Made by a program: the position numbers and the translations under genes. DNA of 47,499 nucleotides, taken from Lachnospiraceae bacterium. Lineage in GTDB: Bacteria; Bacillota; Clostridia; Lachnospirales; Lachnospiraceae. The notes beneath the pieces are model-generated. The model saw only the letters and a list, made by a program, of their open reading frames with translations. It made no database searches and was not told the DNA's origin. This document shows, piece after piece, positions 28,131 to 47,377 of the stretch. The DNA lies in contig JAGAIZ010000084.1 of assembly GCA_017626325.1 (NCBI GenBank), positions 1 to 47,499 on the forward strand. Direction: 5' to 3'. Numbering within the stretch: position 1 is the stretch's first letter; the number at the start of each line of letters is the position of its first letter.

Positions 28131-28207
28131 ATGAGCCTCGATAAAGTTTCTTATAATAATGTATGTTTCTGCAAGGTATTCTATGAAAGCAGCTTCCTTC
28201 GAAATAA

Positions 28208-29467
28208 TTACCTATCGGTATAATTTCTTTTTGTTATAATAGCCTTTTTCATAGCATCCACACCGTGAAACCCCTGCTCCAAAAGCGTACATTCAGCTTG
28301 ATCAAGAGCTTTTGTAAAATTATGTGCTAAATAATCAAACCGCTTCATAGCGATAGATGTTCCCAAGCCCACATTTTTAGCCTCTTCTTCAAAGGCTTTT
28401 CTGTCGATTTCATCTATGCTGTATTTCCCTGCAATACTGAGTGCCATATTTCTTGTACTGCTTTCATACACAGTGGTACTTACTATGTCATATGCGGGAG
28501 CTAATTTGATCGATCTCAAATTTTCGCTATACAGCAATGATATATTTTTAATGTGATTATCTGTATTTCCAATTAAAAAATTGAAAACACATATATCCCA
28601 TAGTTTTAGTTGGTCGGTCATGGGATCAACAGAATACTGTCGCAGTATATGAAACATCTGCTTTAAATATCCTCTCTGATCATGTTCATATTTATCTGCC
28701 GCAGCAATCCCCATAGCCTGCGCGAAATCTTCCTGATGCAGCCTTAACAGGACACCTTCTTCCGATACTTTACGGTCATATCTTTTTGTGGCAAACAGGA
28801 TATCTTCATCCCTTTGGTCTCCCATATTTATAATAAAACTTTCCGGTGTCTCAATCCCCAGATATTTAGCTGTCATTAAACACAACTGTTCATTTACAAC
28901 GATTCTATCCAACCGCACATGGCTTTGTTTTACAATATGCGTACTTGGTGCATTCCCAATAGGCAGATACCATTCCCCTTTCTTGTCATCATAATATAAT
29001 CCGACCTTACCGGACGCCCCTGTTAAAGATAAATGTGCTTTTGTCACAAGCTGTGCCGATTCTGAAACACCCTCTTTTGCCAGATTCTTTACGTCCTCAA
29101 GAGAAAGCTTTTGATAGGAGGCTTCCACCTCCGGACTATCTTCTTCCAATATCCTGACTGCGCCGATACACTCACATCCCAGTCCGGATAACAATGATAA
29201 GTAATCATTTTGGTCGATATGCATCCAGTCAGCGACACACCTTCTGGTAAATCCCTCCGGCAGCAACCCTTCAAAAAAAGTTCTTGTAGCTTTCGGCGTA
29301 TAGCTGATATTGGTAAATGGCAAACGGATAGAAACCGGCGCATTCCGAGGATTACTCATATACTCTTCACTATAACAAAAACATGCGTCCTCCTGATTAC
29401 TTCCTGCTATATTGCCTACATATACCTGCCTGCCCTCTTTTTCGATATATACTGCCAGATTTCTCAC
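28208..29467 (-). CDS. hipA: HipA-type serine/threonine kinase toxin
   Basis: A 419-residue HipA-family kinase, close to the 440 residues of E. coli HipA. The N-terminal domain ends in the loop LSLTGASGKVGLYY. The kinase core has FLIGNTDNHIKNISLL (catalytic Asp and Asn) and LAPAYDIVST (metal-binding Asp). E. coli HipA phosphorylates glutamyl-tRNA synthetase and causes dormancy; the target here is unproven. The start is a GTG at 29467 with GAGAGGAT upstream, 3 nt after the antitoxin stop, so translation is coupled. Its base composition is more AT-rich than the flanking sugar and fab genes, suggesting transfer. Confidence 0.93.
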   Translation of the reverse strand: MRNLAVYIEKEGRQVYVGNIAGSNQEDACFCYSEEYMSNPRNAPVSIRLPFTNISYTPKATRTFFEGLLPEGFTRRCVADWMHIDQNDYLSLLSGLGCECIGAVRILEEDSPEVEASYQKLSLEDVKNLAKEGVSESAQLVTKAHLSLTGASGKVGLYYDDKKGEWYLPIGNAPSTHIVKQSHVRLDRIVVNEQLCLMTAKYLGIETPESFIINMGDQRDEDILFATKRYDRKVSEEGVLLRLHQEDFAQAMGIAAADKYEHDQRGYLKQMFHILRQYSVDPMTDQLKLWDICVFNFLIGNTDNHIKNISLLYSENLRSIKLAPAYDIVSTTVYESSTRNMALSIAGKYSIDEIDRKAFEEEAKNVGLGTSIAMKRFDYLAHNFTKALDQAECTLLEQGFHGVDAMKKAIITKRNYTDR

Positions 29468-29470
29468 TGC

Positions 29471-29689
29471 TTATCCTCTCTTTTCCACATCAATATCCAT
29501 TCCCAGCATATTGATCAAGTATATTGCTTTCCCTAGTTCCGCAGTAACCTTTCCTCTTTCCAGATCGGATATAAAACTGATACTAAACCCGGTATACTCA
29601 GACAAATAAGCCTGTGTATAATGCAATTCCTTTCTTCTTTTTCTAATCAATGCTCCGAGGGATTTTGTATCTGTAATTTTCATAATCAT
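29471..29689 (-). CDS. hipB: HipB-type antitoxin (XRE helix-turn-helix)
   Basis: A 72-residue XRE-family DNA-binding protein. Residues 9-65 form the helix-turn-helix (LGALIRKRRKELHYTQAYLSEYTGFSISFISDLERGK). It should neutralise HipA and repress the operon. It lies directly upstream of hipA in the usual antitoxin-toxin order. GGTGAT precedes the first ATG (29689); a start at 29683 is also possible. Four 39-nt-spaced repeats lie upstream and may be its operators. Confidence 0.92.
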   Translation of the reverse strand: MIMKITDTKSLGALIRKRRKELHYTQAYLSEYTGFSISFISDLERGKVTAELGKAIYLINMLGMDIDVEKRG

Positions 29690-29731
29690 ATCACCATTTT
29701 CTTTGTGCTGTATAATTTATTATATATTTTT

Positions 29732-29868
29732 TATGTCGTTCGGCTTGTTTTTCAATTTATTTTAAAAATTTACGCCGTTCGGCTTATTTTATTAATTGCT
29801 TTGAAAATCTACGCCGTTCGGCTTATTTTCTAATTTTCTTTGTAAATTTATGCCGTTCGGCTCTATTT
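29732..29868. repeat. Four tandem 39-nt repeats with palindromic core upstream of hipBA
   Basis: Cores at 29732, 29771, 29810 and 29849 recur at exactly 39 nt. Two are identical over 20 nt, and the consensus is TAYGCCGTTCGGCTTATTTT. The core GCCG-TT-CGGC is a short palindrome (first copy has GTCG). The 19-nt AT-rich parts between cores are also similar, so this is one degenerate tandem repeat. The nearest core is 43 bp from the hipB start. The best guess is a multi-copy HipB operator, as E. coli hipBA also has four operators, though of different sequence and spacing. Confidence 0.85.
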
Positions 29869-30062
29869 TTATTTTATATATCTAAATACATTCTGTCAAT
29901 TATGCTTTACCGCTTATTTTATCTTATATTTTCATTAAATTACTATGACTAAGGCACTTCCTATAATTGCGAGCTTAAAGGTTTTCTCCACGCAATCAGA
30001 TACAACTTCATGATAATTTCAATAACAGCTAAAGGATCTTGAGCAGGAAGAATGAAGCAGAA

Positions 30063-30106
30063 AAATGGCAGTCAATACCGCTATATGCCGTATAATACTG
30101 CCATTT
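30063..30106. terminator. Bidirectional intrinsic terminator downstream of fabH
   Basis: A perfect 10-bp stem AAATGGCAGT / ACTGCCATTT (30063-30072, 30097-30106) with a 24-nt loop. On the minus strand it ends TTTTTCTGC, on the plus strand TTTCTTTCC. It closes the fab transcript. Confidence 0.8.
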
Positions 30107-30169
30107 CTTTCCATTCTTCTATTATTATAGATTATTTTATCAGTGCCTCATTTCCTACCAAATAATATT

Positions 30170-46950: not shown

Positions 46951-47049
46951 GTTTTTCTCTTACTCTATGATTCTTATATTTATCTTATGGTTCTTGTATT
47001 TACTCTATGTTCTTATCTGTACTCTACGGTCTTATATTTACTCTTTATA
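46951..47049 (-). repeat. Degenerate ~20-nt tandem repeat (about five units) in the EIIC leader
   Basis: Units start at 46951, 46971, 46991, 47010 and 47030, with the common pattern TTCTTATATTTACTCTATG on the plus strand. On the EIIC mRNA the repeats are purine-rich (CATAGAGTAAATA-AAGAA). Confidence 0.75.
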
Positions 47050-47285
47050 TCGGCCAAATTCATTTTCCTGATTATCCCTGAACTTTCTGATAGCTATTTA
47101 CTCTTAAATGAATTTCTGAATCTTGGATTTCAAAATTCCTAAAGCTATTAACTTGTCATCAAATAAGAAATACCCGCCTTTTATAGTAGCATATTTTATC
47201 CTAAAATGATATGGCTTTGATAAAAACGATATTTACGAAAACGATATTACCAGACTAAACAATACTGCAAGCGATATTGCAATTA

Positions 47286-47312
47286 AAACTTTGGAATTGA
47301 AACTTTGGAATT
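47286..47312. repeat. Direct repeat AAACTTTGGAATT
   Basis: Two identical 13-bp copies (47286-47298 and 47300-47312) 14 bp apart in an intergenic AT-rich stretch. ACGATATT also recurs just before it. Confidence 0.5.
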
Positions 47313-47377
47313 AAATCAGTTAATAGATCTATAGAAGCAACAGCACAGCCAATAAATAAAATTATTGCTAATTAAAT

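Follow-up and report, generated by a model that had tools for sequence, protein, structure and literature searches.

What is the role of four short palindromes that recur every 39 bp directly in front of a hipBA operon? This question is raised by contig JAGAIZ010000084.1 of a Lachnospiraceae bacterium (assembly GCA_017626325.1), whose whole analysed stretch of 47,499 nt is called here the window and whose coordinates are given on the plus strand. Comparison with related loci suggested that this array is very probably the autoregulatory operator of the hipBA operon, recognized by the repressor-antitoxin HipB or by the HipBA complex.

The array and the hipBA operon of the window

Read along the minus strand, the locus consists of a predicted promoter (29899-29871), four sites, hipB (29689-29471) and hipA (29467-28208). 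The promoter-proximal core (29852..29861, minus strand), situated at about the predicted transcription start, and the two that follow it (29813..29822 and 29774..29783, minus strand) all read GCCGAACGGC on the coding strand, and the core nearest hipB (29735..29744, minus strand) reads GCCGAACGAC, with one mismatch. In plus-strand letters, this corresponds to GTCGTTCGGC at 29735 and to exact GCCGTTCGGC at 29774, 29813 and 29852. Counted from the start of hipB at 29689, the four cores lie 46-172 nt upstream. A sequence-only reading of this DNA had described four cores at an exact 39-nt period; the core-to-core steps are indeed 39, 39 and 39 nt, although it gave each coordinate 3 nt too low, and the first of its copies carries a mismatch. 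Tandem Repeats Finder delimited the whole array, without regard to strand, at 29730..29870 (period 39, 3.6 copies, score 173). The three 29-nt spacers are mutually 69-76% identical, and they look like the product of a recent duplication of the unit.

Allowing at most one mismatch, the core was matched six times in the window (four of them inside the array). The expected number is 2.59, and six matches were reached in 9 of 100 shuffles; the core count alone is thus weak, and it is the regular spacing that stands out. Exact GCCGNNCGGC pairs 38-40 nt apart were found only at this locus in the bacterium's own genome (3.11 Mb, 92% complete), the reversed-pattern control giving 0. The predicted sigma-70-type promoter of hipBA, TTGACA-17-TAAAAT (29871..29899, minus strand), agrees with the consensus at 11 of 12 positions and is a prediction only, given that promoter matches of this type in that region numbered 7 versus 3.9 in shuffles. 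The array covers the predicted transcription start and leader; its first core overlaps this start, shortly after the predicted -10.

A wider HipB regulon in the same genome was also considered and rejected. Seven further single GCCGWWCGGC sites were found, each on a separate contig, six of which fell inside open frames of at least 100 aa, while the seventh lay near a contig end and in no such frame.

The two genes have the organization expected of a HipBA operon, hipB preceding hipA on the same strand with a gap of 3 nt. The hipA gene (28208..29467, minus strand) encodes a HipA kinase of 419 aa that carries the N-terminal Couple_hipA domain (7.3e-18) and the kinase domain HipA_C (Pfam, 4.2e-50) in one chain. 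Residues S147, D303, N308 and D327, at the catalytic and autophosphorylation positions, were invariant in 31 of 31 aligned sequences and correspond to S150, D309, N314 and D332 of Escherichia coli HipA (numbering counted on the sequence), its catalytic residues and the P-loop serine of autophosphorylation. Moreover, a profile built from 30 relatives matched the solved E. coli HipA chains 2wiu (4e-50) and 4yg7 (4.1e-49).

The hipB gene (29471..29689, minus strand) encodes a Cro/HTH_3 repressor-antitoxin of 72 aa, or 70 aa from an inner ATG at 29683, whose Cro-like helix-turn-helix (HTH) was recognized by Pfam HTH_3 at 1.5e-8; its match to NCBIfam couple_hipB (4.7e-16, 58.5 bits) remained under the family cut-off of 71.65. 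The HipB profile matched solved HipB chains weakly and among other XRE proteins (8ezt, HipB(Lp), 7.2e-6; 4z5h, E. coli HipB, 0.0097). In the alignment with E. coli HipB, the window protein ended before the C-terminal tail of 16 residues, which had no counterpart, and the length of HipB was 69-73 aa in 94 of the 97 members of the clade, the remaining three having 76, 81 and 81 aa. For E. coli, published work (PMC3376134) describes this tail as required for degradation by Lon, but not for operator or HipA binding. With no such tail on HipB, control in this clade may depend less on proteolysis by Lon through a C-terminal degron.

Conservation of the 39-bp step in related loci

The comparison was based on a search for HipA in 397 genomes from this bacterium's family, which returned 41 matches at E<=1e-15, 34 of them strong, and on a scan of GTDB genomes, from which the best 80 of 322 relatives were kept, mostly from Lachnospiraceae and other Clostridia. 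These 80 loci, together with 30 others, made 110, from which nine duplicates, two loci in which no hipB was found (L046 and L092) and one whose contig begins inside hipB (L106) were removed, leaving 98 evaluable distinct hipB promoters. The search for the core around other hipBA loci, which the sequence-only reading had proposed as a check, bore its idea out: at least two GCCGWWCGGC-type cores 38-40 nt apart were present in 97 of the 98 promoters, the filler between them being in most cases unrelated in sequence. Chaining cores with at most three mismatches gave two copies in 16 loci, three in 63, four in 16 and five in 2, a procedure that lets in a few doubtful sites (L062, for instance), so that some loci may be credited with one copy too many. 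The intervals between sites were 39 nt in 155 of 198 cases, 38 in 27 and 40 in 16. A stricter scan (at most two mismatches and an A/T centre) was positive in 95 of 99 loci and in none of 1980 dinucleotide shuffles, with no copy in 1 locus, one in 3, two in 28, three in 56, four in 10 and five in 1. The fuller consensus of the site across relatives was TTAGCCGWWCGGCTAA.

The position of the sites relative to the promoter was also conserved. In 66 of 98 loci, the first site was flanked by a TTGA-type -35 on one side and a -10-like hexamer on the other, the two being most commonly 18 nt apart, whereas this held for only 3 of 97 second sites and for 742 of 25357 background positions (2.9%). At the other end of the array, the last site preceded the start codon by 22-28 nt in 48 of 98 loci.

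Copy number varied from two to five between species, and it was equal in 10 of 13 pairs with at least 90% DNA identity; two of the three unequal pairs involve the truncated locus L082, and the other is a case of three copies versus two. The spacers of L100 (83-86% identical) and L147 (72-76%) look recently duplicated, as do those of the window, and these three arrays show how rungs may be gained.

The clade of hipBA that carries this array was found mainly in Lachnospiraceae. A class-wide HipB search matched only 5 of 291 genomes, among them the window's own genome and G358, both already in the family set, and two weak matches; the single strong match in another family was G639 (4.7e-34).

Linkage of the array to hipB

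The exact-core pattern GCCGWWCGGC-N28-30-GCCGWWCGGC was scanned in the 397 family genomes and was found in 29 places in 25 of them, against 2 genomes for the reversed control. By their coordinates, 26 of the 29 places lie at most 91 nt upstream of a hipB match. This HipB was present in 44 of the 397 genomes, a count that includes the partial matches G219 and G364 (the latter doubtful on inspection), and in 24 of the 25 array genomes (Fisher p 2e-25). HipA of this clade, counted at E below about 1e-37 with fragments included and with the seven weaker of the 41 matches left out, was present in 34 of the 397 genomes and in 19 of the 25 array genomes. HipA is lacking in the other 363 genomes; six of these have the array, and five of the six also have HipB (p 3e-8). 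In G342, G303, G349 and G132, the array stands directly before hipB and hipA is absent, and in G417 it precedes a hipB followed by a truncated hipA. The array thus goes with hipB rather than with hipA, even where hipA has been lost.

Rearranged loci were also observed. In G423, hipA and hipB are on separate contigs (L046, 447-495; L193, about 2930-2985), and each is preceded by two sites, 39-40 nt apart, that share the unusual variant TTCGAACGGC, so that one array stands before an orphan hipA. In G165 (L185, G165:C28, 3619-7044), the ladder and hipB are duplicated about 3 kb apart, and hipA accompanies one copy only. In G132 (L178, 4265-7265), hipB and a two-site ladder are followed not by hipA but by a gene for a ResIII/DEAD helicase of 906 aa, a locus for which PADLOC returned no match. 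A separate search of 77 genomes of the genus with a looser core centre gave extra matches in G059 and G014, whose fillers are G+C-rich and which look like chance.

Arrays away from hipBA would speak against the multi-operator switch of hipBA that the sequence-only reading had put forward. Such arrays are few (3 of the 29 family arrays, in addition to one in G504 and the one before the orphan hipA of G423), and the idea is not overturned by them; the 97 of 98 promoters, the linkage to hipB and the precedent of E. coli support it strongly.

Points against the operator reading and alternative explanations

Several observations weigh against the operator reading. The 98 loci are not independent, since near-identical pairs remain among them, some more than 98% identical. 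The array is absent from L082, which retains remnants of hipB, and only one site each was found in L190 and L192, which have hipB but no intact hipA. Unlike the arrays of about two thirds of the relatives, that of the window is located downstream of the predicted -10. Spacers are somewhat more alike within an array than between loci. As to arrays that stand elsewhere, one precedes a hexapeptide acetyltransferase gene in G250 and a two-site array precedes an amidohydrolase gene in G504, a genome of the same genus found in the genus search (L182, 4667-4715, within a TTGACT/TATAAT promoter), neither genome having a close HipB; the third array of G165 (C28:185938) has no adjacent hipB; and the second array of G321 (L183, 6695-6742), about 4 kb from the first, follows a second copy of the 156-aa gene that neighbours the first array and stands before another pair, an HTH protein of 112 aa and a HipA-like protein of 413 aa (the likeness to HipA being judged by eye). 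The arrays of G250 and G504 are best read as relics of lost hipBA, and all four would be accounted for as relics or copies of hipBA promoters. On the protein side, neither G22, the hipA7 site, nor D88 of E. coli HipA is conserved in HipA of this clade (positions counted by hand), and a bridging of HipA to HipA of the E. coli type is not supported by sequence. Lastly, a literature search found no binding or expression data for this hipBA clade.

The likeness of the spacers leads to the alternative that the repeats are merely a product of tandem duplication, with a spacing that was never selected and with only one or two real operators. The arrays of the window, L100 and L147 fit this explanation, and the likeness of spacers within arrays indicates that tandem duplication also contributes. 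Nevertheless, adjacent 29-nt spacers of one array had a mean identity of just 48% (n=65), versus 40% between loci and 33% after shuffling, meaning that the 39-nt step is kept while the spacer sequence drifts and the cores stay conserved. In addition, site-to-site distances taken without restriction peaked at 39 (137 pairs), followed by 78 (55) and 38 (23), with 14 pairs at 40. Duplication as the whole explanation is accordingly considered improbable, and the 39-bp step is apparently kept fixed by selection.

It is still less probable that a transcription factor other than HipB binds the cores. The arrays of G250 and G504, in genomes without a close HipB, could be taken in its favour, but this factor would have to accompany HipB in 24 of the 25 family array genomes, including five of the six without HipA, and the split locus of G423 keeps the sites with both genes. 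The remaining alternative, in which the array would act in the leader RNA as an attenuator, a riboswitch-like element or a small RNA target and not as DNA operators, finds some ground in the window, where the sites come after the predicted -10 and are probably transcribed. Among the relatives, however, the first site lies between the two promoter hexamers in two thirds of the loci and is probably not transcribed there, for which reason the RNA reading was rejected as hardly credible. By its letters, each core could form only a hairpin with a 2-nt loop, and Rfam at its gathering thresholds yielded only a tRNA elsewhere in the window.

Proposed mechanism and significance

The sites, their spacing and conservation, the overlap with the promoter and the genetic linkage to hipB are in silico observations, from which we infer HipB as the binder, repression, cooperativity and the participation of HipA. 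Each GCCGWWCGGC, in its fuller form TTAGCCGWWCGGCTAA, would be a dyad site for one HipB dimer. HipB, probably with HipA as co-repressor, would fill the two to five sites between promoter and start codon and repress hipBA. Contacts between neighbouring HipB(A) complexes would set the 39-bp pitch and allow cooperative binding, the step being fixed, most simply, because neighbouring complexes would have to touch in order to bind cooperatively.

A bolder extension, which is offered tentatively and is rather doubtful, would regard the array as an evolvable ladder. HipB(A) would be aligned on the 39-bp pitch, and the number of rungs (two to five), changed by duplication of the 39-bp unit, would determine how steeply, or at what threshold, hipBA is repressed, and thereby how frequently cells become dormant. 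After loss of hipA, HipB and its ladder would persist as a free-standing cassette that could be recruited to other neighbours, such as the ResIII/DEAD helicase of G132 and the HTH/HipA-like pair of G321, and the ladders now in front of the amidohydrolase of G504 and the acetyltransferase of G250 would be accommodated in the same way.

If the array is the operator of hipBA, the multi-operator switch of E. coli would extend to a clade that occurs mainly in Lachnospiraceae and whose array is simple and very regular. The regularity of the ladder makes the reason for phased multiple HipB operators directly testable, and the site consensus provides a sequence handle for finding such hipBA loci and their relics.

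Genomic context of the locus

The homology of the window with its relative G029 stops at 28131 and resumes at 30168, indicating that about 2 kb with hipBA (approximately 28132..30167) are extra in the window; in G029, spmA adjoins fabH. The surroundings of fabH were compared in 19 relatives: hipBA adjoins the gene in none of them, and spmA does so in 6.

An origin from a phage or a plasmid was considered and rejected. In IMG/VR, only 1 of 37 stretches with the pattern encodes a relative; this is L203, whose three sites follow one another at steps of 38 nt. Among plasmids, 126 records matched HipA at 1e-30; the best, from Treponema saccharophilum, carries a HipA gene 50% identical with three cores at -103, -65 and -26, and the other nine among the matches listed are 30-36% identical.

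Two further features of the window were recorded. Between fabH and the hipBA promoter, 30049-30120 contains an inverted repeat, with arms of 24 nt that are 75% complementary, as well as a terminator-like stem; these may be the terminator of the fab operon or a part of the inserted stretch. Short tandem arrays with periods of 19 and 14 are located at 46960-47044 and 47277-47315, near the contig end and a partial tRNA.

Comparison with known hipBA systems

In E. coli K-12 MG1655, four TATCCN8GGATA sites start at -134, -106, -67 and -39 of hipB, with intervals of 28, 39 and 28. The sequence-only reading had stated that E. coli hipBA also has four operators, of another sequence and spacing; number and sequence agree with this statement, but the middle interval is also exactly 39. 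The E. coli site at -67 stands just before a TATAAT and has a TTGACT on its other side; these hexamers are 23 nt apart, which is too far for a standard spacer, and the site is thus said only to overlap the promoter region. The two systems share four dyad sites before hipB, the middle interval of 39 bp, the overlap with the promoter region, an HTH_3 HipB and the gene order hipB-hipA. They differ in the operator, which is an 18-bp TATCCN8GGATA in E. coli and a 10-bp GCCGWWCGGC here, in the intervals, which are 28-39-28 there and uniformly 39 here, in HipB, which has 70-72 aa in the window and lacks the E. coli tail, and in HipA, which is only 29% identical to that of E. coli. The E. coli intervals of 28 and 39 differ by 11 bp, which would be about one helical turn. 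According to published work, HipB binds the four E. coli operators cooperatively (PMC3920265, PMC3376134) and HipA acts as a co-repressor (PMC3920265). In Caulobacter crescentus, a member of another phylum, the hipBA1 and hipBA2 promoters are described as having serial inverted repeats at intervals consistent with the higher-order complexes of E. coli (PMC7029023).

A second, unrelated hipBA of the window's own genome (L201, 405-614; G000:C20) also has repeated dyads before hipB, arranged in two fixed-step pairs (405/446 and 560/601 in L201) of 41 nt each. It differs in the core, of TGTCAN4TGACA type, in the 41-nt step and in belonging to another HipA/HipB subfamily, with a HipB open frame of 124 aa. 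The evidence for this case is weaker, as its best pair in a strict de novo scan for dyad pairs was not above the best of 30 shuffles. For E. coli, L007 and L061, the same scan recovered the pairs already known, and it came back empty for all 28 evaluable distant HipA loci (29 were tried, L027 being without an open frame), which is a weak negative.

A literature search, conducted mostly without full texts, found no published description of this array. What was already known, from E. coli, is the multi-operator hipBA switch as a kind; what is new in the present clade is the core sequence, the uniform 39-bp ladder, a HipB without the E. coli C-terminal tail and the breadth of the loci over which this arrangement extends.
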